Below, piece after piece: positions 1 to 46,489 of a stretch of DNA of 64,000 bases (its first letter is position 1; each line of letters starts with the position of its first letter). This DNA comes from Phycisphaerae bacterium (lineage in GTDB: Bacteria > Planctomycetota > Phycisphaerae > UBA1845 > UTPLA1). The position numbers were made by a program, and so were the translations under genes. The notes below the pieces were generated by a model. The model did no database searches. It had not been told where the DNA came from and saw only the letters and a program-made list of their open reading frames with translations. Where the stretch lies: the NCBI GenBank assembly GCA_023150615.1, contig JAKLKO010000019.1, positions 1 through 64,000 on the forward strand, in the 5' to 3' direction.

Positions 1-188
1 TACATCCTCCCGTTCGGGCCGTCGCGGGGCATCGACCGGCCTTGGTGCCGCGGGAGACGCGGAGTGGACCCCTCATTATTGAGTATAGCACGGATTACCG
101 GACAGGCAAGTCGGAAATCGCCTTTCTCGCATCTCGCCCGGCCGCCGGCCCTTGCGATCGAGTTCGATCCGAGCGTCGCGCCGCGATG
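1..188 (-). promoter_or_regulatory. Promoter/leader cassette, copy 1 (copy 2 at 45612-45800)
   Basis: This segment matches 45612-45800 closely. The first ~108 bases differ at about six positions, and a second conserved block covers about 128-188. Read on the minus strand it holds, in order, a dyad GATCG-AGTT-CGATC (156-169), an extended -10 TGCTATACT (82-90), a hairpin (17-41: GGCC GTCG stem, 8-base loop) and a GGGAGGA ribosome-binding region (5-11). CTCCCG (51-56) can pair with CGGGAG (7-12). In copy 2 the base matching position 1 is the A of the ATG of a PEP-CTERM gene. I therefore infer that a minus-strand gene, probably also secreted, begins at position 1 and lies outside the window. Confidence 0.75.
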
Positions 189-263
189 TGTGGCATTGCG
201 ATAGGACGCGACGCGAGCAATTCGTCGCGGCGCGTTACGATTCATGATGTGGCGTACGCGATT

Positions 264-297
264 CAGTGACTTACGTCAGTGACATACGTCTGTCACT
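264..297. repeat. Tandem 13-bp repeat merging into an inverted repeat
   Basis: Positions 264-276 and 277-289 are near-identical 13-mers (cagtgac[t/a]tacgt). The second copy continues into a 7-bp inverted repeat, AGTGACA-TACGTC-TGTCACT (278-297). It lies downstream of the btpA-like gene (minus strand, ends 404), so it could be a terminator, although it has no T tract. It could also be a binding site. I see no gene in 189-403. Confidence 0.5.
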
Positions 298-403
298 CTG
301 CGGGATCCGACCGGGGGTGATCGGGAGTGCGCAACTCCTCGGCCAGCGAGACGACGGCCGCTACGGCGCGGGCGACCGGAAGGTAGCGCGCGGCGGCGCG
401 TGG

Positions 404-1222
404 TTATGTGCTGCGGATGCGGTCGAAGGCGGCGCGCATTGCGGCGACGCGCGTCGGATCGGGCGGGTTCGACCAGAGACCGTCGCGCTTGAGGAACGAG
501 CCCACGATGAGGCCGTCGGCGTGCGGCAGGAACGACTCGAGATTGTCGGGCGTCGTCCCGGAGCCGACGAGCACGGGGATGCGCACGGCGCCCTTTGCGG
601 CCGCGACATCGGACGGCGATGCAGCGCGGCCCGTGGCGCTGCCGGTGATGATGATTGCGGCCGCACCGAAGAACTGGGCGGCGCGGGCGGTCTCGGCGAG
701 GTCGACGTCGGCGGTGAGGGCGTGTGCGGCGTGCTTTTTCTTGATGTCGGCGTAAACGGCGACGGCGTCCGCGCCGATCTGGCGGCGGTAGCGGAGCAGC
801 GGGCCGGCGTCGGCGTCGGGCATCAGCCCTTCGTCTGCGACGTGGGCGAAGACGAAGTTTTCGGCGCGGATGAACCGGCATCCTGCGGCGTGCGCGACGG
901 CGAGTGCGGCGCGGTTGGCGCCGGCGAGCACCTGGACGCCGAGCGGCAGCGCAACCGCCTGCCGGACCGCAGTGCAGACGGCGGTCATGGCGGCGACGAC
1001 TTCGGGACCGACGTCCTGGCGGAGGTAGGGGACGTCGTGCATGTTCTCGAGGACGATGGCGTCGACGCCGTGGTCGGCGAGGAGCTTCGCTTCGTCGGCG
1101 GCCTGCCGCGCGATGCGTTCGACGGGCAGGGCGGCGCGCGGCGTTCCTGGCAACGCGCCGACGTGGATCATGGCGAGGAAGGCGGGTTTCCGGGCGGCGT
1201 CAAGGGGCGACGAGAGATTCAT
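404..1222 (-). CDS. BtpA/SgcQ-family TIM-barrel protein
   Basis: The product has 272 residues and a TIM-barrel-like pattern of the BtpA family. Features include MIHVGALPG near the N-terminus, a VDAIVLENMHDVPY strand, FIRAENFVFAHVADEG, a central YADIKKKH motif and a C-terminal IPVLVGSGTTPDN / ADGLIVGSFLKRDG phosphate-binding-type pair. BtpA was named for a role in photosystem I stability in cyanobacteria; in other bacteria the substrate is unknown. The ATG at 1222 lies inside the 3' end of the upstream amidohydrolase gene (23-base overlap), which implies an operon with coupled translation. Family assignment is firm; function is not. Confidence 0.85.
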   Translation of the reverse strand: MNLSSPLDAARKPAFLAMIHVGALPGTPRAALPVERIARQAADEAKLLADHGVDAIVLENMHDVPYLRQDVGPEVVAAMTAVCTAVRQAVALPLGVQVLAGANRAALAVAHAAGCRFIRAENFVFAHVADEGLMPDADAGPLLRYRRQIGADAVAVYADIKKKHAAHALTADVDLAETARAAQFFGAAAIIITGSATGRAASPSDVAAAKGAVRIPVLVGSGTTPDNLESFLPHADGLIVGSFLKRDGLWSNPPDPTRVAAMRAAFDRIRST

Positions 1223-2069
1223 AGGAGTCCGGCCGGCGGTCGCGAAAGAACTGCCAAGTGTTGCGGACCTCGCGGATGAGGTCGAGGTCGAGGTCGGCGA
1301 CGAGGACGTCGTCCTCGTTGCGTTTGCCGGTGCAGAGCATCTTGCCGCGCGGGTCGCAAAAGTAGCTCTGGCCGTAGAACTCGCCCATGCGCCACGGCTC
1401 CTCGTAGCCGGGCCGGTTGATTGCACCGACGAAATACTGGTTGGCGACGGCGTGGGCGGGCTGCTCGAGCTTCCAGAGATACTCGCTGAGTCCGGCGACG
1501 GTGGCGGAGGGATTGAAGACGATCTCCGCACCGGCGAGTCCGAGGGCGCGGGCGCCTTCTGGGAAATGGCGGTCGTAGCAGATGTAGACGCCGACCTTGC
1601 CGACGGCGGTATCGAAGACGGGGTAGCCGAGGTTTCCGGGGCGGAAGAAGAATTTTTCCCAGAAGCCGGGTGCGACGTGCGGGATGTGCATCTTGCGGTA
1701 CTTTCCGAGGTAGCGGCCGTCGGCGTCGATGAGGGCGGCGGAGTTGTAGTAGACGCCCGGGATGTCCTCCTCGTACATCGGGACGACGAGGACGAGCTTG
1801 AGCCTGCGTGCGAGGTCGATCATGAGCCGGGTGGTCGGGCCTTCGGGGATGCGCTCGACGAGCGCGTACCACTTGGGGTCCTGATCGCAGCAGAAGTATG
1901 GGCCGTAGAACAGTTCCTGGAGGCAGACGACCTGCGCGCCCTGCTGCGCGGCGCGCTCGATCAGCGCGAGGTGCTTGTCGACCATGGACTTCTTGATCTT
2001 CTCGATCGGCGACGTGCCGGGTTCGGACAACGTGGCCTGGATCAGTCCGGCTCGAACGATGCGCGGCAT
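1200..2069 (-). CDS. Nitrilase-superfamily amidohydrolase, beta-ureidopropionase-like
   Basis: The product has 289 residues, the usual length for carbon-nitrogen hydrolases. The catalytic triad is visible as Glu52 (CLQELFYGPYF), Lys126 (KYRKMHIPH) and Cys164 (VYICYDRHFPEG). The surrounding sequence, including GNLGYPVF and the run GAEIVFNPSAT followed by LSE-LW, resembles N-carbamoyl-beta-alanine amidohydrolase, the last enzyme of reductive pyrimidine breakdown. No dihydropyrimidinase gene is in the window, so the substrate is an inference; N-carbamoylputrescine amidase is the main alternative. It is cytoplasmic, with no signal peptide. A GGGAGG ribosome-binding site precedes the ATG at 2069, and its 3' end overlaps the btpA-like start. 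Confidence 0.85.
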   Translation of the reverse strand: MPRIVRAGLIQATLSEPGTSPIEKIKKSMVDKHLALIERAAQQGAQVVCLQELFYGPYFCCDQDPKWYALVERIPEGPTTRLMIDLARRLKLVLVVPMYEEDIPGVYYNSAALIDADGRYLGKYRKMHIPHVAPGFWEKFFFRPGNLGYPVFDTAVGKVGVYICYDRHFPEGARALGLAGAEIVFNPSATVAGLSEYLWKLEQPAHAVANQYFVGAINRPGYEEPWRMGEFYGQSYFCDPRGKMLCTGKRNEDDVLVADLDLDLIREVRNTWQFFRDRRPDSYESLVAP

Positions 2070-2179: not shown

Positions 2180-5100
2180 ATGGATGCGACCCTGCGCGCC
2201 GCGACGCCCGTAACCTGGTTCATCCGGACGTTCTCCAGCATCTGGCTGGGCGTGTTCTGGCTGGCCGCGATCATCGTTTTCAGCTCGGTCGGCTCGGCCG
2301 TGCCGCCGTTTCGGCAGTTCTTCGAATTGACCGAGTTCGCGTACTTCAACCACTGGATCTTCGTGGTCCTGATCGGGTTGTTCTGCCTCAACCTGACAGT
2401 GGCGACGGTCGTCCGCATTCCGTTCAACCGCTACAACCTGGGCGTTCTGACGGTGCACACGGGTCTGCTCGTGCTGGCGGGCGGATCGCTGCTCTACTTC
2501 GGCCGGAAGATCGAGGGCGACGTGCTGCTGTGGAACCCGCGGGTCCAGGTTCTTTCGGCGAAGCGCTTGCACGGAACGGCGGGCGGCGACCCGGTGCTAG
2601 GCCAGACGGTTGCGGCAAAGGGCCGGCGCTGGGCGACAAACATGCCGATGGCCGGCGGCCGGGTGACGGTGGATGTCGAGGACGTGCGGCACGAGGGGCT
2701 GCTGACGGCGGCGCAGGCCGATCTTCGAATCCAGGTCGGCGATGGCGAGGCGAAGAAGTTGACACTGCGACTGGACCGGCCGGAGGAGCGGTTCGCGCGG
2801 ATCAACGAAGAGCTGCTCGTTCAACTCGTGCCGACAAACGTGACGGACCGGTTCTTCGACAACCAGACGCCGGCGCTGTTGATCCGCCGTGGGGATCGCG
2901 AGCCGATGATGCTGCCGATCGAGGGGTTGCCGCTGTATCGCGAGCGGTTCGTGCCGGGCGTCGAGGAGATCTTCGATACGCGGAACCAGCGTGTGGAATC
3001 GGACCGGCTGACGCCGATCCCGCTGGTGGATCCGTGGCGGATGCCGGCGCCGATCAGGGGGCCTGGCGGCGCGGACCTGCCGGATTGGCCGATCCGACTG
3101 GAGGTGGACGGCTACCTGCCGTACGCGGCGATGCAGTCGGAGCCGCGGCCGGGCGGCGATGTGCTGAATCCGATCGCGCGGATCGAGTTGAGCAACGCGT
3201 CGGGGACGTTCCGCGACTGGGTGATCGGGCCCTCGCCGCGCGATGCGCTGACGTCGTCTCCGGACGGCGCGCACGTCGAGTTCCGCTGGCTGGGCGCGGC
3301 GTCGGACATTCCGAAGGAGTGGACGCGGTCGGTCGAGGGGCGGCACGCGCTGGAGGTTTGGATCAAGGACAAGGACGTCCGGCGGAACTACGACATCCAG
3401 CCGGGCCAGACGATCGCGGTCGAGGGGACGGACTACACGCTGAAGGTCCACGACCTTCAGCCGGACTGGCCGCTGGCGACACCGCAGCTCCAGGGGGCGC
3501 GGACGCCGATCGCGCGGATCTGGGTTGAGACGCCGCAGCGTGGGTACGAGCGGAGCGTGCTGCAGCGATTCCCGGAACTGAACCAGGACCGCGATGCGCA
3601 GGGCCAGAAGCTCTCGGACAAGGGGCTGGTGGATGAGAACATCGAGCTGCGCTACACGAACGCGAGCCGGCCGTGGTTTGCGCTCGTGGCGGGCGAGTCG
3701 CTGTCGCCGGTGGTGATCACGACGGCGATCGGCGGGAAGCGCTCGATGCAGACGCTCGCGCCGGGGGGGACGATTACGTGCGATGACACGACGCTCCTTC
3801 TGCGCGAGCTGATCCTGCGGCCGAAGATCGTTCAGCAGCCGGTGGTGATTCCGATCGAGCAGCGGCGTCCGCAGATGGCGCGGAATTTCTCGATGATCCG
3901 GCTGCGGATCGCGTCTCGGAACTCGGACTGGCAGACGCGGGTGTGGCTACCGTACGAGCCGTACAACGACACGTACACGGGACAGTTGCCGCACTGGGAG
4001 TCGGTCCGCGTGCCGGAGATTGGGGAGTTGCAGTTCTTGTACGGGAGGTTGACGCGGCCGCTGCCGGGGCGGTTGGCGCTGGAGGAGATGCAGGTCGAAT
4101 TTTTTCCGGGGGGCGAGCGTCCGGCGGGCTGGACGAGCTTCATCCGCTGGGAGGACCCGCAGACGCGGGCGATCACGCGCGGGCGGGCGTTTCTGAACAA
4201 TACGGCGCGGATCGGACCGTGGACGCTGTTCCAGTCGAGCGAGTCGTCGGACCACCAGAGTTACACGGTGCTGGGCGTGGGAAATCGCGACGGAGTGATG
4301 ACGATGCTGCTCGGATGCACGCTGGTGACGATCGGGATGCTGTATGCGTTCTACGTGAAGCCGGCGCTGAAGCAGCGGGCCCGGCGGCGACTGGCGGCCG
4401 AGGCGGGGGCGCGTCACGAGACGGCGGCGAGCGAGCCTCGGGGGCGGGCGCTGATCGAAGTCGGGCGCGTCGCGCCGCTGGCGTTGATCGTGGCGTTGCT
4501 GTCGATTTCGACGGCCGCGGCGCAGATGCCGTCCGCCTCGGCCCGGCAGCCGGCGTCGATCGAGCGACTGCGCGAGATCCAGGGCCAGTTGCACCTCGAT
4601 GGGCTTCGGCCGCTGCTGGTGCAGCACGCGGCGCGATACAAGACGGTCGAGGCGTGGGCGCGGGAGGTCGTTTCGGCGATTCACGGCAAGGCGGAGCTGC
4701 TGGGGCTGGACCCGGTGGTGGCGGCGGTGGACCTGATGTTCAACCGCGCGGCGTACGACGACCAGCCGGTGATTTATGTCAAGGACATGGTGATCCGCAA
4801 GAACCTGACGAGCCATCCGGTGAGGTTGTCGGCGGAGGAGGCGAAGCGAATCGTCCAGACGGGGATGGTCTCGTTCAACTTTCTTCAGGACCCGGAGGTC
4901 GGCGCGATCCTTCAGGACCTGTCGGGGCGGATGACGATCAAGCGAGCAGTCGATCGGTTCAACATCGCGGCGCACTCGTACGGCCAGGTGCTGGGGCAGT
5001 TCAACATCATTCCCGATCCGACGGGCAACGCGCTCAGCGCGTGGTACGGAGTCGATGCGCTGTTCGCGAACCTGGGCATGGCCGGCGACCACGCGCACGG

Positions 5101-15638: not shown

Positions 15639-15866
15639 GCGGCCCTTTGAAACGAGGAACCGTATGGTAGCGGGTTTGCGGGCGGTTGCCAGCATTAAGT
15701 CCCGGCGGGCGAGCGGCGAAGTGTCGATTGAAGGCGGTGGCGAGGGTCACCGAAATCGGCTGAGTCCGCGTAATCGCGGTGGCGACAGGCAGTGCGCTGG
15801 ACTTGCGGTGTGAAATGCGGTTCATGGCCGGACCGAATGCCGGCCTCCGCACATGCGAGTCGTTCC

Positions 15867-15896
15867 TTGAACTGGCGGGCGGCGTTCGGGTATCGT
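15867..15896 (+). promoter_or_regulatory. Predicted promoter of the PEP-CTERM propeller gene
   Basis: TTGAAC (15867-15872), an 18-base spacer and TATCGT (15891-15896), followed by a leader of about 70 bases ending in a GAGGAGAGAG ribosome-binding region. Confidence 0.45.
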
Positions 15897-15973
15897 TGTG
15901 CTTGGGTCCGGGGAGCACACGCCACGGCCCGGTCGATTGGGGGCGTTCGCCTCGATCGAAGAGGAGAGAGAAG

Positions 15974-16909
15974 ATGAATACACGCGCTTTTGTGTTCCGG
16001 CCGTCGTTCCGCGCTCTGGCCGTCGTGATGGCCGCGGTGATGCCCGCGGCGGTCGCGCAGGGTCAGTTGTTCGTCTCGAGCGATTTCTTCGATGTCGTGA
16101 GCGAGTACGTGCCAACGTTGGGGGCGTTGGTCGGGCCGTTCGCGTCGTCGGTGAACGGCAGCGGGCAGCTCGCGGTGAAGCTGAACGCGGCCGGAACGCG
16201 GATGCTTGTCGGGCATTTTGACGGCGGGGTGGATGAATTCGACGCTATCAGCGGCGCGTACATCAAGACGTACAACGGCGGAAGCGGAGTGGGGACGCAG
16301 TGGGCGGGCCTCTACGCGCCGACCGGCAACGTCTACATCAGCAGTTGGGCCACGAACGACGTGCGCGAGTACGACGCCGTCACGGGCGCGTTCATCCGCG
16401 TCGTGACGCCGGTTCCGTCGCCGGCGGACATGCGGATCGGCCCGAACGGCAACCTGTACATCTGCGGCTTCGGTTTCGGATTCGTGATGGAGGTGGATGC
16501 GATCACCGGGGCGTTCGTGAATCAGTGGTCGCTGCCGGCGCAGGCCCAGGCGAACGACATCGAGTTCCTGCCCAGCGGCGAGATCCTCGTCACGGCGATG
16601 CGATCGAACCAGGTCTACCGGTATGACACGTCGTACAACCTGCTCGGCTCGTTCAGCGGGACCGGATGGGGGAATCCGCACGGGATCGAGATCAGCCCGT
16701 TCGATGGGAATATCTACGTTGTCGACGGCGTGTCATCGCAGGTGCACATGTTCGATCCCGTCACGTTCAGCGAGCTGAACAGCGCGCATCTGACGCCGTC
16801 ACCGGGCGGAAAGATCGTCGACCTCGCGTTCCGCGTGCCGGAGCCGACGACGCTGGGGCTGCTCCTATCGGCGCTGGCGTGGGTTCGGGTGCGGGGGAAG
16901 AGGCGGTAG
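15974..16909 (+). CDS. PEP-CTERM secreted beta-propeller protein
   Basis: The product has 311 residues. A signal peptide (MAAVMPAAVAQG, about 1-28) precedes a repeated NHL/SMP-30-like propeller: units such as DVREYDAVTGAFIRV, MEVDAITGAFVNQW and YRYDTSYNLLGSF recur about every 40 residues. The tail is a canonical PEP-CTERM signal: VPEPTTLGLLLSALAW followed by basic residues. Such tails are recognised by an exosortase, which is not encoded here. The ATG at 15974 follows a strong purine-rich ribosome-binding site; longer upstream in-frame starts would bury the signal peptide. The ligand or role at the cell surface is unknown. Confidence 0.85.
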   Translation: MNTRAFVFRPSFRALAVVMAAVMPAAVAQGQLFVSSDFFDVVSEYVPTLGALVGPFASSVNGSGQLAVKLNAAGTRMLVGHFDGGVDEFDAISGAYIKTYNGGSGVGTQWAGLYAPTGNVYISSWATNDVREYDAVTGAFIRVVTPVPSPADMRIGPNGNLYICGFGFGFVMEVDAITGAFVNQWSLPAQAQANDIEFLPSGEILVTAMRSNQVYRYDTSYNLLGSFSGTGWGNPHGIEISPFDGNIYVVDGVSSQVHMFDPVTFSELNSAHLTPSPGGKIVDLAFRVPEPTTLGLLLSALAWVRVRGKRR

Positions 16910-29834: not shown

Positions 29835-31460
29835 ATGAACGCCGAATCCGCGCATCGCACGCCGGCCGTAACCTGCACCGTGGATCGGCTCCCGGGACGC
29901 CGGTGGCGCGTGGCGGCGATCGTCGCGCTGGCCGTTACGGCGAGCAGCCGGGCCTTGAATATCCAGACCGGCGATTACTCGAAGAACGACCCGAACTTCG
30001 TGCGGATCATGACCTGGAACGTGCTTCAGCACCTCGGCGACCCGAACGAGCCGACGACGCCGTGGACGACGACGCAGGTCGGCTCGCCCGTCTCGGCCAT
30101 CAACCTTGTCGTGGCGGCGATGAACCCGGACATCCTCCTTCTGCAGGAGTGCGGCGACATCAACGCCAACCTGACGTTCTCGCAAGTTCAGACGGCGATG
30201 CAGCAGTGGCGGAACGCGAACCTGCCGGGCTACGCGCTCGTCGTCTCGACCGACGGCGGCGACATCCACAACGCGATCCTGTCGCGCTGGTCCTTCACCG
30301 ACATCAACGGCGACGGTCGCGCGACGACGATCGACATCCCGAATCTGACGGCCGGGCCCGGCGGCTGGCCGGCGGGCGGCGACGGCGGGATCCGCGGCTG
30401 GCTTCAGGCCGAGGTGAATCTGCCGGACGCGACGTACCTGGGCAACCTGTACGTCGGGTGCAGCCACTTCAAGGCTGGCGGGACGTCGGGGGATGAGACC
30501 GACCGCGTGATCGCAGCGAAGAACATCGCGGCGTACATCCAGTATGCGCTCAACCAGTCCGGCGATCCGCTCAACATCATCCCGGACGCGTCGCAGCCGC
30601 CGCAGGCGCTCAATGCGAACACGCCGGTCGTGTGGGGCGGGGACTTCAACACCGCGAGCGGCCAGAACCCGGTGAATATCCTGCGGGACAACAACCCGGC
30701 CGATCCGGCCGATGGGACCGATCGGAACTTCGGTTCCTCGTGGCGGAGCGACGTGGCGACGGCGTACAACGGGACGGTGGCGACGTACCAGTCGGGCAGC
30801 CGCCTCGACTGGATCCTCGTGCAGGACACGATCGCGAGCATCAACGCCGCGTGGATCTTCGACACGGGGCGGATGCCGAAGACGGGCAACACGATCACTC
30901 AGGGCGCGCCGCCGAACATGGTGGGCCTGTTCAACAACGCGACGATCAACAGCGTTGCGTCGGACCATTTTCCCGTGCTCGTCGATATCCAGGTGCCGCC
31001 GGCGGTGTTTCTTGCGTCGGTGAGTATCGCGGGGCCGGGCAGCGTGAACAGCGGGCAGTCGGCGCAGTACACGGGCACGGCGCACTTCAGCGATTCGAGC
31101 CAGCAGGACATTACGAACACCGGGAGCTGGTCGGTGACCGGGCCCGGCTCGATCACCTCGGGCGGACTGTTTACGGCGAACGTCGTGCCGTTCGACACGA
31201 GCGCGACGATCCACCTGCAATACACGAGCGGCGCGATCACCGAGAACGACTCGATGGTCGTCGCGATTCCGTCGGTCTGCGATCGGAGCGGCGACGTAAA
31301 CGGCGACGGGCAGCGGAACGGTGAGGACATCGGCGCGTTCGTGGGCGTGATCACGGGCGTGGACACGGACGCGCTGCGGACGTGTCGCTCGAACATGGAC
31401 AACAGCGCGGCCGTGGATGCGGTCGACGCGGCGATGCTCGTCACGGCGCTGCTGATTTGA
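29835..31460 (+). CDS. Secreted endonuclease/exonuclease/phosphatase-fold protein with dockerin tail
   Basis: The product has 541 residues. After a signal peptide (about 15-45) comes an endonuclease/exonuclease/phosphatase domain (about 55-395): RIMTWNVLQHL, ILLLQECGD (catalytic Glu), VWGGDFNTAS and a terminal SDHFPVLVDI histidine motif. A bacterial Ig-like domain (about 405-480) and a dockerin-like pair follow: GDVNGDGQRNGEDIGAFVGV and AAVDAVDAAMLVTALL. It may be a nuclease or phosphodiesterase displayed outside the cell. Dockerin tails in planctomycetes occur without a known cellulosome, so the partner is unclear. Confidence 0.85.
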   Translation: MNAESAHRTPAVTCTVDRLPGRRWRVAAIVALAVTASSRALNIQTGDYSKNDPNFVRIMTWNVLQHLGDPNEPTTPWTTTQVGSPVSAINLVVAAMNPDILLLQECGDINANLTFSQVQTAMQQWRNANLPGYALVVSTDGGDIHNAILSRWSFTDINGDGRATTIDIPNLTAGPGGWPAGGDGGIRGWLQAEVNLPDATYLGNLYVGCSHFKAGGTSGDETDRVIAAKNIAAYIQYALNQSGDPLNIIPDASQPPQALNANTPVVWGGDFNTASGQNPVNILRDNNPADPADGTDRNFGSSWRSDVATAYNGTVATYQSGSRLDWILVQDTIASINAAWIFDTGRMPKTGNTITQGAPPNMVGLFNNATINSVASDHFPVLVDIQVPPAVFLASVSIAGPGSVNSGQSAQYTGTAHFSDSSQQDITNTGSWSVTGPGSITSGGLFTANVVPFDTSATIHLQYTSGAITENDSMVVAIPSVCDRSGDVNGDGQRNGEDIGAFVGVITGVDTDALRTCRSNMDNSAAVDAVDAAMLVTALLI

Positions 31461-31639
31461 CGGCGGCGGGTGCGGGCGCGGAGTGCGGATCGAATTCGTG
31501 GTGCTTTCCGGAGGGAAGAGGGAAACGCAGCCACATCCTCGCCGACGATGCGGACGCGCGAGCGTGCCGGCAAATCGCGGCGATTCGCAGCGGATATGAA
31601 ACTGGAGATCTTGTCCCGTTAGAAGCGCAGGAGGGTTCC

Positions 31640-34600
31640 ATGACACGTCTTCGTCTGGCATCGTTTCTCGTACTGACAGTGACCGGCCTGGCGTTCGGCC
31701 AGACCGAAGGTTGGCGGCAGGGCACGCCGGGCGAGCCGGATGAAGCGCCGGATCGACCGGTCGTTCCGCTGGTGACGCCCGTACCGACGCTGTTCCTCGA
31801 TGCGACGCCGCCGGCGCCGTCCGATCCGGACGGGACGACGTCGCTGTATCTCATCTCGACCGGGAATGGCGCGGACACGACCGGCACGAATTGGTCACAC
31901 CTCGAAGCCGAGGGCGCGAACTTCGGCGCGTTCCGCAGCCAGTTCTGGCTCCGCTGGACCGGTCTGCTGACCAAGCTAAGGACCGACGCGGACACCGGTT
32001 TCGGGACCAACGCCTGGACGATCCGCAAGATCTGGCTCGTCGTTGATCCGGCGACGGGCATCGACGTGGATTGCAGTCCGGGACTCGTCTCCGCGGCCGA
32101 GACCAACAACACGCTCAGCTACACGCTGTTCGCCGACTGGGGCGACCAGACGCAGGCGCCGACCGAGGTCGGCGGCAACGGCGTCACCAATCTGCTTGCC
32201 GGCTATCACGGATTCATGATGGGCCCGACGCGCGTGAACAACGGCGGCAACGACGTCCCCTGCTTCCAGCAATCGACGCTCGATCCGGACGTCTATCTGC
32301 TCATGGATGAGACGGGCGGCTCGATGCAACCGTTCCCGAGCGGGACGATCGCCTTTCAGAAGTTGACCGGTCCGCCGACGCGCGTGCGGCCGGTGCAGGA
32401 CGTGTTCACGCTGTACCTCGCGCCAATCAACGATGACACGACGGGCGCGGCGACGGGCGTTTCGTACGACGGGTTCAACCCGGGCAACTTCGGCTTCAGC
32501 CCCTACCTGCTCTTCGAGATCGTCAAGCAGCCGCCGGTGGTTGGCTCGAATCCGCCCACCGCGCAGAACTTCTCCGGCATCGCGCCGTACACCGCCGCGG
32601 CCGGTCCGACGTGCAGCGACACGATCTTCGCCTCCGACATCGACCTGGACCCGCTGACGTTCAGCGTTGTCGACCCCCCCGGCGGCGGCTCGATCGCGCT
32701 CAGCGGACCGCCGAACAACCTCGGCGGCGGGAACTGGTCGCAGAACATCACCTACACCATCCCAGCCGATTTCCGCGGCGTCGAGACGTACAACTTCTCC
32801 GTCTTTGACGGTACCAACACGGGCTTCGGCACGATTACCTACGTCGTTCGCGGCAACGCGGTGCAGAACACCGTCGCCTACGGCGGCAACACCGGAAGCG
32901 TGACCGACACGATGCGGCTGTACAGCGGCAAGTCGGTCCCCGACGGCGGCGACCAGGGGCGGCTCGACCGCGCGCCGAGCGCCTATTTCGATCAGTCGGT
33001 CGAATTCGACAACTACAACGGCATCCGCCACAACGCAAATGGCAACCTGTTCGGTCTTTCGTTCGGCCCCGCGCCCGCCGGACCGGGAGTGCTCGTGGTC
33101 CACGCCACGCAGTCCGGCTGCGCCGATCCGGGCGCGACGGTCGTCTTCACGTTCGACGCGGCGAGCACCGGCCTGGCCGGTCCGTCGCGGACCTTCGGTC
33201 TGTCGGTCAGTCCGCTCAACAACCGCATCGCGTGCGTGGGCGTCAACACGGCGCGGTTGTTCATTCTCGACTACACGGCTGGCGCGGGCGTGGGCACGGG
33301 CGGCGCGACGGCGGTCAGCACGCTGACGCTTGCGCACGCCGTGGACCTGGGTGCAACGATCTGGGCGGCCAACCGGTCGATCGGCACGGCGTGGCTCGAC
33401 AACGACACGATCCTGGTGCTCGACACGGACGGCAATCTGCAGACCGTGGATGCCGTCACGGGCACGGTGCTCACGGATCCGTTCAATCCGTACGTGGCGA
33501 CGCCGCGGCTGGCGCCGAACATCAGCTCGGCGGACATCGAGTACAATCCGACCATCGCGCCGTACATCTACGTCTCGATCGGCGAGTTCGCGGCGGGCAC
33601 GACGACGAACACGCTGTACGTCGTCGATCCGACCGGTCCGAGCATCGTTCCGCTGTCCGGCGGCGCCCAGTACGCCGATTACAGCGCGACGAACTCGACC
33701 TTCCGGGAGATCGCGCTCGATTGCCATGGGAACCTGTTCCTGAGCACGTTCGTCAACTTCGACGACGACATCGGCATCCGTTACCTGCCGAACGCGAAGA
33801 ACCCGGGCGGCATCACGAGCGGTTTGGGCTCGTGGATCTCGTGGCGGCTCTTCCTGATCGGCGAGGGCGCGCCGAACTTCAACGGACTCGACGTTGCCTG
33901 CGGCAACGCGTGTCCGAACGCCCCTCCGGCCGCGTCGAGCATCTCGACCAACGGATTAGTCAACACGACGTGCTCGGTCACGCTGTCGGCGACCGATTAT
34001 GACGCCGGCGACACAATCACGTTCATTGCGGACAACCCCGGCAGCGGCGGCGGGACGCTGACGCCGACCGGTCCGGTGACGGGCAACCCGACCCGCACGC
34101 AGCAGGCGAACTACACGCCGCTGTCCACGTGGCGCGGCGTCGAGTGCTTTACCTACCGTGCGCAGGACAACGGCGCCGGCAACCTGACGTCGAACGATGC
34201 ACAGGTCTGCATCAACGTCCGGGGCAGCGCCACCAACGGCACGGTCGCCTTCGGCGCGAGCCTGTTCACCGACACGCAGACGATGCGGCTCTACTACGGC
34301 GCTCATAACGCCGGCGGCGGAACCGCAGGCGCGGAGGACGTCCTGACGGGGCTGAGCTTCCCGCAGTCGGTGGAGTTCGACAACTACAACAACGTCCGCC
34401 ACAACCCGGCGGGCAACCTGCTGGCCCTCAACTTCGGAACGACGCTCGGCGGCGGCGCGCTGCACGTCTATCCGACCATGGCCGAGTGCAATGGCCAGGG
34501 AGGCTTCGTGCGCTACGTTTGGGACGGCCTGACGCAGGGCGAGTTGACGCGGGTCGTCGGTCTCGCCTTCAACAACCCGGCCAATCCCGCGAACAGCAAG

Positions 34601-35464
34601 CTCGCCGTGTATGGCGTGGATACGAAGAAGATCTACTTCCTCAACTACACGCCGGGCGCTCCCGCGGCCGTCGGCAAGGGCGGCGCGGCCGCCTGCACGG
34701 TCTCGGCGGCGGGCGACGCGGATGTAAGCTCATTCGCGCTTAATCCGCGCACGCTGGGCCTGGCGTGGCTGGATGACACGACGGTCCTGTGGGTGGATGA
34801 GGCGGGCAACCTGTACACCGTAACGACCGCCGGCGTCGTCACGCAGCGAACGGTGTGTCCGCGGGCCGGCGTGGCGAGCATCTCGACGGCCGACATCGAG
34901 TACAACCCGGCGATCTCGCCGAACGTGTACGTGTCGATCGGCGAGAGCGCCGCAGGCGTGACCACGAACACGCTCTACATCGTCAACCCGTCGACCTGGG
35001 CCGTGGTGCCCCAGGGCGCCGGGAACTTCAGCGATCACAGCGCGACCGGGACGAGCACGTTCCGCGAGATCGGTCTCGACACCGGCGGCACGCTGTTTAT
35101 CGGCACGTTCGTGGATTCGGCCGACCGCGTGAACATCCGCATTCTGCCGAACGCGACCACGCCGGCGTCGATCGCGAACGACAGCACGGTGGTCTGGAAC
35201 GTCCAGGACGTGGGTCAGTTCATCGCGAACTTCTCGGGCCTCGACGTGGCGGCCGGACTGCCGGTCACGTGTGCGCTGCCCGGCGACATGCCGCCCACGA
35301 ACGGCATCGTCAACGGCGGCGACATCAACAAGTTCGTGGATTGTTACCTCGACTCGGTCGGCCAGGCGCCGGTGGCGAACTGCGAGTGCGTCGATACGGC
35401 GGCGCCGTTCGGCACCGTCACGTCGGCGGACGTCGCGGCCTTCGTGGTCGACCTGTTGAACTGA
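31640..35464 (+). CDS. Large secreted protein with duplicated cadherin-like/propeller modules and dockerin tail
   Basis: The product has 1274 residues. A signal peptide (about 1-20) precedes an N-terminal beta domain (to about 295). Two homologous modules follow, each a cadherin-like domain and a propeller-like region: about 310-755 and 756-1210. The repeat is clear in NTVAYGGN.../NGTVAFGAS, MRLYSGK/MRLYYGA, SVEFDNYNGIRHN/SVEFDNYNNVRHN and FREIALD/FREIGLD. The C-terminus is a dockerin-like pair (GDINKFVDCYLDSV, TSADVAAFVVDLLN). It is likely a surface adhesin or scaffold. AGGAGGG lies just upstream of ATG 31640; longer in-frame starts (31382) would overlap the previous gene and bury the signal peptide. 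Confidence 0.8.
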   Translation: MTRLRLASFLVLTVTGLAFGQTEGWRQGTPGEPDEAPDRPVVPLVTPVPTLFLDATPPAPSDPDGTTSLYLISTGNGADTTGTNWSHLEAEGANFGAFRSQFWLRWTGLLTKLRTDADTGFGTNAWTIRKIWLVVDPATGIDVDCSPGLVSAAETNNTLSYTLFADWGDQTQAPTEVGGNGVTNLLAGYHGFMMGPTRVNNGGNDVPCFQQSTLDPDVYLLMDETGGSMQPFPSGTIAFQKLTGPPTRVRPVQDVFTLYLAPINDDTTGAATGVSYDGFNPGNFGFSPYLLFEIVKQPPVVGSNPPTAQNFSGIAPYTAAAGPTCSDTIFASDIDLDPLTFSVVDPPGGGSIALSGPPNNLGGGNWSQNITYTIPADFRGVETYNFSVFDGTNTGFGTITYVVRGNAVQNTVAYGGNTGSVTDTMRLYSGKSVPDGGDQGRLDRAPSAYFDQSVEFDNYNGIRHNANGNLFGLSFGPAPAGPGVLVVHATQSGCADPGATVVFTFDAASTGLAGPSRTFGLSVSPLNNRIACVGVNTARLFILDYTAGAGVGTGGATAVSTLTLAHAVDLGATIWAANRSIGTAWLDNDTILVLDTDGNLQTVDAVTGTVLTDPFNPYVATPRLAPNISSADIEYNPTIAPYIYVSIGEFAAGTTTNTLYVVDPTGPSIVPLSGGAQYADYSATNSTFREIALDCHGNLFLSTFVNFDDDIGIRYLPNAKNPGGITSGLGSWISWRLFLIGEGAPNFNGLDVACGNACPNAPPAASSISTNGLVNTTCSVTLSATDYDAGDTITFIADNPGSGGGTLTPTGPVTGNPTRTQQANYTPLSTWRGVECFTYRAQDNGAGNLTSNDAQVCINVRGSATNGTVAFGASLFTDTQTMRLYYGAHNAGGGTAGAEDVLTGLSFPQSVEFDNYNNVRHNPAGNLLALNFGTTLGGGALHVYPTMAECNGQGGFVRYVWDGLTQGELTRVVGLAFNNPANPANSKLAVYGVDTKKIYFLNYTPGAPAAVGKGGAAACTVSAAGDADVSSFALNPRTLGLAWLDDTTVLWVDEAGNLYTVTTAGVVTQRTVCPRAGVASISTADIEYNPAISPNVYVSIGESAAGVTTNTLYIVNPSTWAVVPQGAGNFSDHSATGTSTFREIGLDTGGTLFIGTFVDSADRVNIRILPNATTPASIANDSTVVWNVQDVGQFIANFSGLDVAAGLPVTCALPGDMPPTNGIVNGGDINKFVDCYLDSVGQAPVANCECVDTAAPFGTVTSADVAAFVVDLLN

Positions 35465-44892: not shown

Positions 44893-45612
44893 CTATCTCG
44901 AGCGTCGCGACCGCACGCGACGCAATCTCATCAAGCCTGCAAACATCAGGAACAACGCCACACCCGACGGTTCGGGCGTTCGTAACTCATACGCCAACTG
45001 CCCATTGCCCGAGATGCTCTGCCATGCCGCTCCGAGCGGGTACTGGAATGCGTATTCGCCGAAGTTCGACGCTTCCCACTGAAATCGGCTGCTCAGATCC
45101 CCGATCTGCGCCACCTCCAGCCAGTAGTCGGTGTTGGCTGCGACGGGGAACCCGGCCGAGAGCGTCACGTCGTAGCGGTATTCCTTACGTGCCGGGCCAA
45201 GCGCAACGAAAAACCCCGTAAACACCCGCGGCGGGTTCAGGAACTCCTCCTCGTAGCGCAGCTCGCCCGGTACGCCGCCGGCATCGGCGTAGAAGCGGAC
45301 ACGCATGGTTTCCGTGACCGGCGGGGGCGGATCGAGGTCCTCAAAGCGTCTTCCGAAGAACCCCCACGCGACCAGCTTATAAATGTTCGCACTCTGGGAT
45401 AGCCGAAAGCGGTCCGCATACAGCGCCCCGTCCGGCAGACTGAAATCGTTGAAAAACAGGGTATCCGACGGACGCCCACCGGTTCGCGAAGGGGATTGCG
45501 CGTGTAAGAGCACGTCCTGCGCGGATGCGGGTTGCGCGGCGGCAAGACCGGCAAGCCAGACCGCGGCCGTCATCGAGAGCGCGAATGCGGATTGGCGTGC
45601 AAGAGCAACCAT
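44893..45612 (-). CDS. PEP-CTERM secreted protein
   Basis: The product has 239 residues. A signal peptide (about 1-31) is followed by a beta-sandwich-like domain of unknown family (FFNDFSLPDG, YRYDVTLSAGFPVAANTDYWLEV), and a PEP-CTERM tail TPEPSGVALFLMFAGLMR plus Arg-rich end. It is expected at the cell surface after exosortase processing. It is controlled by cassette copy 2 immediately upstream; the ribosome-binding region AGGAGG is one base from ATG 45612, unusually close. Confidence 0.8.
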   Translation of the reverse strand: MVALARQSAFALSMTAAVWLAGLAAAQPASAQDVLLHAQSPSRTGGRPSDTLFFNDFSLPDGALYADRFRLSQSANIYKLVAWGFFGRRFEDLDPPPPVTETMRVRFYADAGGVPGELRYEEEFLNPPRVFTGFFVALGPARKEYRYDVTLSAGFPVAANTDYWLEVAQIGDLSSRFQWEASNFGEYAFQYPLGAAWQSISGNGQLAYELRTPEPSGVALFLMFAGLMRLRRVRSRRSR

Positions 45613-45800
45613 ACCTCCTCCCGTTCGGGCCGTCGCGGGGCATCGACCGGCCTTGGTGCCGCGGGAGACGCGGAGTGGACCCCTCGTTATTGACTATAGC
45701 ACGGGTTTCCGGACAGCCAGGCGCAATTCGCGTTTTACCCGCATCTCGCCCGGCCGCCGGGCGTTGCGATCGAGTTCGATCCGAGCGATGCGCCGCGATG
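45612..45800 (-). promoter_or_regulatory. Promoter/leader cassette, copy 2
   Basis: This is the second copy of the element at 1-188. On the minus strand, the dyad GATCG-AGTT-CGATC (45768-45781) is followed by an extended -10 TGCTATAGT (45693-45701) and a leader of about 74 bases. The leader has a hairpin (45628-45652) and CTCCCG that can pair with CGGGAG of the ribosome-binding region. The far end reaches the stop of the CoA-transferase beta gene. The dyad, the -10 and the whole leader are conserved between copies; the -35 region is not, as expected for activator-dependent or extended -10 promoters. Confidence 0.75.
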
Positions 45801-45802
45801 CG

Positions 45803-46489
45803 TTACACCTTCATCTCGGTCACATCCCCCGCCGTCACGAACTCGGCCGGGGTGATCTTGCGGACGGCGTCGACGTCCATGCCCGGTGCGACCTCGCGGA
45901 GGATCATCTTCACACTGCGGCCGCCGGCCGACGCCGAATAATCGAAGTCGAACACGGCGAACTCGGTGATCAGCCGGTGCACGCAGCGGACGCCCGTCAG
46001 CGGCAGCGTGCACTTCTTCACCACTTTCGAGCTGCCCGCCTTGTCGCAGTGCTGCATGAGGATCACGACGCGCTTGGCCGACGCGACGAGGTCCATCCCC
46101 CCGCCCATCCCCTTGACCATCTTGCCCGGCACCATCCAGTTCGCCAGATCGCCCTCCTGGCTCACCTCCATGCCGCCCATGATCGTCAGGTCGATGTGGC
46201 CGCCGCGGATGATCTCGAACGACTCGCTGCTGGAGAAGTACGCGCTGCCCGGCAGGTCGGTGATCGTCTGCTTGCCGGCGTTGATGAGGTCCGGGTCCTC
46301 CTCGCCCTCGTATGGGAACGGGCCGATGCCCATGAGGCCGTTTTCGCTCTGCAGGACGATGTTGATCCCGGGCGGGATGTGGTTCGCGACAAGGGTGGGC
46401 ATGCCGATGCCGAGGTTGACGTAGTAGCCGTCGCGCAGCTCCTGGACGGCGCGGAGGACGATGCGATCGCGTGGGTTGATCTCTTTCAT
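45803..46489 (-). CDS. scoB: 3-oxoacid CoA-transferase subunit B
   Basis: The product has 228 residues and moves CoA between succinyl-CoA and a 3-ketoacid (or acetate/acetoacetate). It has [17 protein letters not shown], the catalytic glutamate in [14 protein letters not shown], and [18 protein letters not shown]-like residues (here [19 protein letters not shown]). It is 30 bases downstream of the subunit A gene, the usual operon order. The exact acyl donor is uncertain within the ScoAB/AtoAD group. Confidence 0.9.

Follow-up and report, generated by a model that had tools for sequence, protein, structure and literature searches.

Repeated element at the contig edge and its neighborhood

The window analyzed here (the whole stretch of 64,000 nucleotides, positions 1-64,000 of contig C10) belongs to a 4.1-Mb planctomycete MAG in 70 contigs, with the completeness of the source assembly estimated at 99.6%. 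The segment of about 188 bp at the left edge of the window recurs 45.6 kb away, as originally predicted: copy 1 (1-188) and copy 2 (45,612-45,803) align at 91% identity (E 6.8e-69), with ungapped blocks at 94% and 90% identity. Copy 1 neighbors a gene of the BtpA family; copy 2 borders on the stop codon of a gene for a CoA-transferase subunit and, in agreement with the prediction that it precedes a PEP-CTERM gene, is directly followed by a gene encoding a DUF7901 PEP-CTERM protein (Table 1).

Table 1. Element copies, their component parts and the adjacent genes in the window
Feature	Position	Strand	Evidence
Copy 1, 5' module (promoter and leader), cut by the contig end where the A of the ATG is expected	1..188	-	genome search, alignment, end overlap
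Extended -10 of copy 1, TGC-TATACT	82..90	-	sequence and alignment of copies
-35-like TTGCCT of copy 1, 16-nt spacer	104..109	-	sequence and alignment
Dyad GATCGA-N2-TCGATC of copy 1, not family-specific	156..169	.	palindrome search, alignment
44-bp segment missing from other copies	187..230	-	alignment of copies
U module, upstream extension of the repeat, common to C44, C6, C16, C18 and C10 end	231..374	-	alignment
BtpA-family gene (PF03437), neighbor of copy 1	404..1531	-	domain match
DUF7901 PEP-CTERM gene, 239 aa	44893..45612	-	PF25470, TIGR02595, AlphaFold model
Signal-peptide codons 1-38, homogenized coding part of the 5' module	45499..45612	-	alignment, synonymous-site analysis
Predicted ~74-nt leader of copy 2, Shine-Dalgarno GGAGG	45613..45686	-	sequence
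Copy 2, 5' module, adjoins the CoA-transferase stop codon	45613..45803	-	genome search, sequence
Extended -10 of copy 2, TGC-TATAGT	45693..45701	-	sequence and alignment of copies
-35-like CTGGCT of copy 2, 16-nt spacer	45715..45720	-	sequence and alignment
Dyad of copy 2	45768..45781	.	palindrome search
CoA-transferase subunit (PF01144), neighbor of copy 2; the repeat is bounded on its 5' side by the stop codon	45803..46489	-	domain match

A search of the whole genome with the 188-bp element detected nine copies, namely the pair in the window and seven at other places, which are 88-98% identical over their overlap; the element is neither limited to the window pair nor found in random contexts. 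Five copies are complete (C10 copy 2, C16, C18, C6 and C44) and four are cut by contig ends. Two further genes (C13 and C44:39616) have no more of the leader than its last ~30 nt, and the family members at C13 and C44:39643 have kept the signal peptide and lost the promoter.

The conserved unit is larger than first reported, extending upstream by ~150 bp in most copies and downstream into the signal-peptide codons, after which conservation ends abruptly. The additional upstream similarity (hereinafter the U block) is present at C6, C16, C18, C44 and both the start and the end of C10, and is weaker at C25; copy 2 lacks it because this copy abuts the CoA-transferase stop codon. The resemblance of copy 1 to the rest reaches to about position 374, past an insert of 44 bp (~187-230) which, by eye, looks like the start of a C44-type element and is a sign of a partial duplication or a mosaic junction.

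Probable assembly break at position 1

The aligned start codon of copy 1 was originally noted to fall exactly on position 1, and the A of the ATG is indeed there, but this coincidence comes from the assembly, given that contig C10 physically ends at position 1 of the window. The final 77 nt of C10 at copy 1 exactly match the C44 copy, and exact 77-base overlaps with another copy were also detected at the ends of C25, C10 (right), C17, C13 and C4 (right); the left end of C4 has 61 bases in common with another copy and, among the examined contig ends of the element family, those of C18 and C44 show no such overlap. The six ends with the 77-base overlap are typical of assembly breaks at repeats, and an unresolved repeat would be expected to leave overlaps of this length in a de Bruijn assembly at k = 77. 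The position of the start codon is, therefore, an assembly effect. With regard to the gene to the left of position 1, the sequence ends at the contig end; nevertheless, the 77-nt graph overlap with C44 implies that copy 1 continues into the start codon and signal peptide common to the copies.

Contig C10 is flanked at both ends by outward-facing element copies (C10:1-188 and C10:73408-73494, the latter located outside the 64,000-nt window). In L049 (C16), there is a run of Ns near gene-strand position 3,444, so that the partial second DUF7901 copy at this locus represents a scaffold join.

Promoter, leader and dyad

The extended -10 (TGCTATACT in copy 1 and TGCTATAGT in copy 2), the complete ~74-base leader and the dyad that had been described for both copies are all present. 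By contrast, the claim that the -35 region is not conserved does not hold: a -35-like hexamer (TTGCCT, TTGGCT or CTGGCT) is recognizable 16 nt before the -10 in every copy that reaches that far. All five complete copies, as well as the contig-end copies that extend far enough, carry a -10 of their own, and each complete copy has a strong Shine-Dalgarno sequence. The -10, the leader and the Shine-Dalgarno sequence together are the most conserved non-coding part of the element, with 63 of the 69 leader columns invariant in the alignment of the copies. Inspection of the aligned copies did not reveal a sigma-54 (-24/-12) motif, the -35 and extended -10 being of the sigma-70 type instead. The simplest reading is that the element is an ordinary sigma-70-type promoter that travels with its gene; judging from the consensus matches, this promoter is predicted to be active.

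We considered a structured leader or riboswitch and dropped this candidate, given that the leader shows no unusual RNA fold (z-score +1.49 compared with shuffled sequences) and matches no Rfam family at the gathering score. The dyad is intact in seven of the nine copies, is lost in C44 and has one arm altered in C6; moreover, palindromes of its class are found at 13 further sites in the genome, six of which were inspected and found to lie inside long open frames, which makes the dyad a weak candidate for an operator.

The DUF7901 family of PEP-CTERM proteins

All five complete copies run into members of one paralogous family, the DUF7901 (PF25470) PEP-CTERM proteins, although in the case of C44, the signal peptide leads into a short remnant that is followed by the DUF7901 gene. 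The 88-aa frame in question (L048:1957-2227) combines a type-1 signal peptide with the type-2-like remnant, and its stop codon overlaps the GTG with which the following DUF7901 gene begins. Wherever the sequence continues downstream of a copy, it encodes MVALARRSAFAFSMTAAVWLAGLAAAQPASAQ or a nearly identical signal peptide. PF25470 is matched by all eight family members that were scanned (best E 5.2e-8), with a score of 27.6 bits against the cut-off of 24 for the member shown in Table 1. The PEP motif, hydrophobic helix and basic tail of the window protein are recognized by TIGR02595 (C10:44908-44979, 18.7 bits, cut-off 16), whereas some other family members score below this cut-off.

In the AlphaFold model of the window protein (mean pLDDT 87), the signal peptide and the C-terminal helix (residues 217-237) flank a beta-rich domain. 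A Foldseek search with this model yielded only weak beta-sandwich matches (query TM at most 0.46) to carbohydrate esterases and phage baseplate and fibre proteins, which we set aside. A single exosortase is encoded in the genome (PF09721 at C1:89121, E 2.2e-55), and the DUF7901 proteins can be predicted to be exported via the signal peptide, sorted by this exosortase and to reach the cell surface.

Genome-wide, 38 PEP-CTERM matches score above the cut-off, most of them far from any element copy, and the copies coincide only with those that belong to DUF7901 proteins. The window encodes another PEP-CTERM protein (15779-16909, plus strand; 22.8 bits) that belongs to no Pfam family and is not of the DUF7901 group. 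Also in the window, at 31382-35464 (plus strand), is a 1360-aa open frame with Big_9 domains, in which direct repeats ~1,360-1,370 bp apart (33,516/34,875 and 32,993/34,364) delineate a duplicated unit of ~455 aa.

Synonymous divergence and mosaic structure

The signal-peptide codons and the mature parts of the paralogs differ sharply in synonymous divergence. The pooled pS is 0.165 for the signal-peptide codons versus 0.574 for the mature codons, and this step is significant in 14 of the 15 pairs (Fisher p <= 1.6e-3), the pairs being non-independent and derived from few sequences. In 14 of the 15 pairs, dS of the mature part is ~0.7-2.5, that is, near saturation, compared with 0.1-0.3 for the signal peptide in the same pairs. 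Such unequal synonymous divergence inside one gene pair indicates that the parts are of unequal age, although constraint on translation initiation or mRNA could account for part of the low dS in the initial codons. The C16/C18 pair is a case in point: 513 bp through the signal peptide are 96.5% identical, after which pS rises to 0.68 and pN to 0.42. Generally, identity in a sliding window collapses where the signal peptide ends, going from 90-98% to 40-50% over ~60 nt; a core segment that is once more 90-100% identical is common to all members except C18.

The PHI test in our own implementation, taken as supporting evidence only given the 4-6 sequences available, gave p = 0.001 for the four complete copies, 0 of 1000 permutations for six genes, and 0.003 for the mature part, and so argues against a history free of recombination. 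Two chimeras reveal the exchange directly. In C17, a type-2 leader and signal peptide are joined to a type-1 body, with an exact 32-bp stretch at the cleavage site, and in C44, a type-1 promoter, leader and signal peptide precede the short type-2-like remnant. The 3' flanks also include two types common to several members (C10a/C13 and C6/C16/C44b). In C13, the first part of the spacer resembles the 3' flank found at the other members, and the spacer is joined to the last 32 nt of the leader, so that the promoter was probably lost by unequal recombination.

Relatives of the element and the family

The element DNA is absent from the 60 relatives searched; two weak matches of 37-58 bp were read as chance, with no DUF7901 gene in view. 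The proteins are far more widespread, with DUF7901 relatives encoded in 16 of the 17 genomes of the taxonomic family, the source genome included; a search of GTDB contigs with the family alignment yielded one planctomycete relative only. Paralogs in G008 and G001, genomes of two further genera, possess 5' blocks of their own that are unrelated in sequence, and show the same kind of step, with pS of 0.26 for the signal peptide versus 0.68 for the mature part in G008, and 0.38 versus 0.76 in G001. The latter assembly consists of four contigs, so the step in G001 is not an artefact of fragmentation. In G015, two genes have ~600 bp of upstream DNA in common at 91% identity and differ in their signal peptides. 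The L086/L088 pair of G008 displays the reverse pattern, namely similar bodies (dS 0.56) and different signal peptides (pN 0.57). For the tandem paralogs of G010, BLAST detected no obvious 5' block. In L096:1216-2850 (G001), two DUF7901 genes are fused in one open frame, inside which lie a PEP-CTERM and another signal peptide.

A proposed recombining gene family and the alternatives

Taking together the observed copies, their boundaries, the synonymous-site step and the chimeras, we propose that the repeat is, most probably, the front end of a recombining family of DUF7901 PEP-CTERM genes in which modules are swapped between diverged bodies. The unit would consist of an optional U block, a sigma-70-type promoter, the ~74-nt leader and the signal-peptide codons. 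Dispersed copies would undergo homologous recombination or gene conversion, whereby this near-identical 5' module would repeatedly be joined to strongly diverged mature regions and 3' modules would be exchanged as well, such that many different surface proteins would end up with a common promoter, a common start of translation and a common secretion signal. The direction and rate of the exchange we infer from the sequences, and co-expression of the family members appears plausible.

The original prediction considered the repeat to be a promoter-leader cassette of a surface-protein regulon, in which a common regulator or sigma factor would maintain the element. The part of this prediction that stands is that the complete copies all precede surface-protein genes, one of them via the gene remnant, and the strong conservation of the -10, leader and Shine-Dalgarno sequence fits such a scheme. 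However, these genes are paralogs of a single family, the element is missing at most PEP-CTERM genes, and the conservation covers not only the synonymous sites in the signal-peptide codons but also another ~150 bp upstream, so that the reading as a stand-alone cassette or a general surface-protein regulon is not supported. Together with the fate of the dyad and the absence of the element from the relatives, most of which within the taxonomic family encode the proteins, this renders maintenance by a common regulator possible but doubtful. Any shared regulation would be a consequence of shared ancestry and recombination. A transposon end or MITE-like mobile repeat inserted before genes would account for the dispersed, multiple copies whose upstream sides abut unrelated genes (CoA transferase, BtpA), yet no free-standing copy was found, the same gene family always comes next where the sequence continues, and no terminal repeats are evident at the boundaries inspected by eye; we find this possibility extremely hard to credit.

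Simple recent duplication, with a mature part that evolves fast under diversifying selection and without recombination, is compatible with dispersed and tandem copies that have 5' and 3' flanks in common. Duplication combined with fast protein evolution does not, however, yield gene parts of unequal age, as seen in the dS values of the mature parts and signal peptides, nor does it fit the chimeras, the PHI signal and the reverse pattern of L086/L088; this disfavoured explanation is highly improbable. Phase or antigenic variation, whereby recombination between 5' modules switches the expressed body as in the mycoplasma vpma/vsp systems, is suggested by three features: a conserved 5' untranslated region and signal peptide adjoin a variable mature part, which is also what has been described for vpma (PMC2268961), the bodies are mosaic, and outward-facing copies lie at both ends of C10. 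The presence of a promoter at each complete copy, which leaves no single expression site, and the chance that the exchange occurs only on the evolutionary scale make such switching quite improbable.

Comparison with known systems

We regard the DUF7901 family as a mosaic multigene family of surface proteins, with vpma/vsp as the closest known architecture. In vpma/vsp, the 5' untranslated region and the signal-peptide codons are conserved within the family, the mature parts are variable with shared blocks, and putative recombination sites lie at -72 to -1 relative to the start codons (PMC2268961); the DUF7901 family similarly combines a conserved 5' untranslated region and signal peptide with a variable mature part. 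The Vpma proteins, however, are lipoproteins encoded in one locus with a single active promoter and Xer1 site-specific inversion (PMC2268961), whereas the DUF7901 loci are dispersed, have a sigma-70-type promoter at each complete copy and rely on PEP-CTERM sorting. Instead of a single active promoter and silent copies, each copy that reaches the -10 carries its own. That ongoing module recombination swaps the expressed bodies of exosortase-sorted surface proteins, making this a chromosome-wide analogue of Vpma in a free-living planctomycete lineage, is an analogy that we consider unlikely to hold.

Conserved upstream DNA common to several genes and lineage-specific expansion of paralogs are also features of the PEP-CTERM/exosortase systems of Proteobacteria, in which the upstream site is of the sigma-54 type (PMC1569441); the planctomycete promoter differs in being a sigma-70-type extended -10 that is confined to a single paralogous family and inherited along with the signal peptide. 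Intragenomic recombination by which paralogous surface-protein genes exchange parts has been described for bab and related outer-membrane-protein paralogs of Helicobacter pylori (PMC3444412), where the proteins are unrelated to DUF7901 and the recombination is reported among clinical strains. The eight DUF7901 members scanned resemble the choice-of-anchor R proteins by virtue of their PF25470 matches; in the literature searched, we found neither sharing of a 5' module among such proteins nor anything relevant to the same module pattern in planctomycetes.

Implications

PEP-CTERM proteins are numerous and mostly uncharacterised. In each of three genera, a homogenized front end is combined with a body whose divergence approaches saturation at synonymous sites; this suggests diversification of these families by module exchange, and the pattern offers a way to test how planctomycetes diversify their surfaces. 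Repeats of this kind interrupt short-read assemblies precisely at the start codon, and as a result variable bodies can drop out of MAGs.
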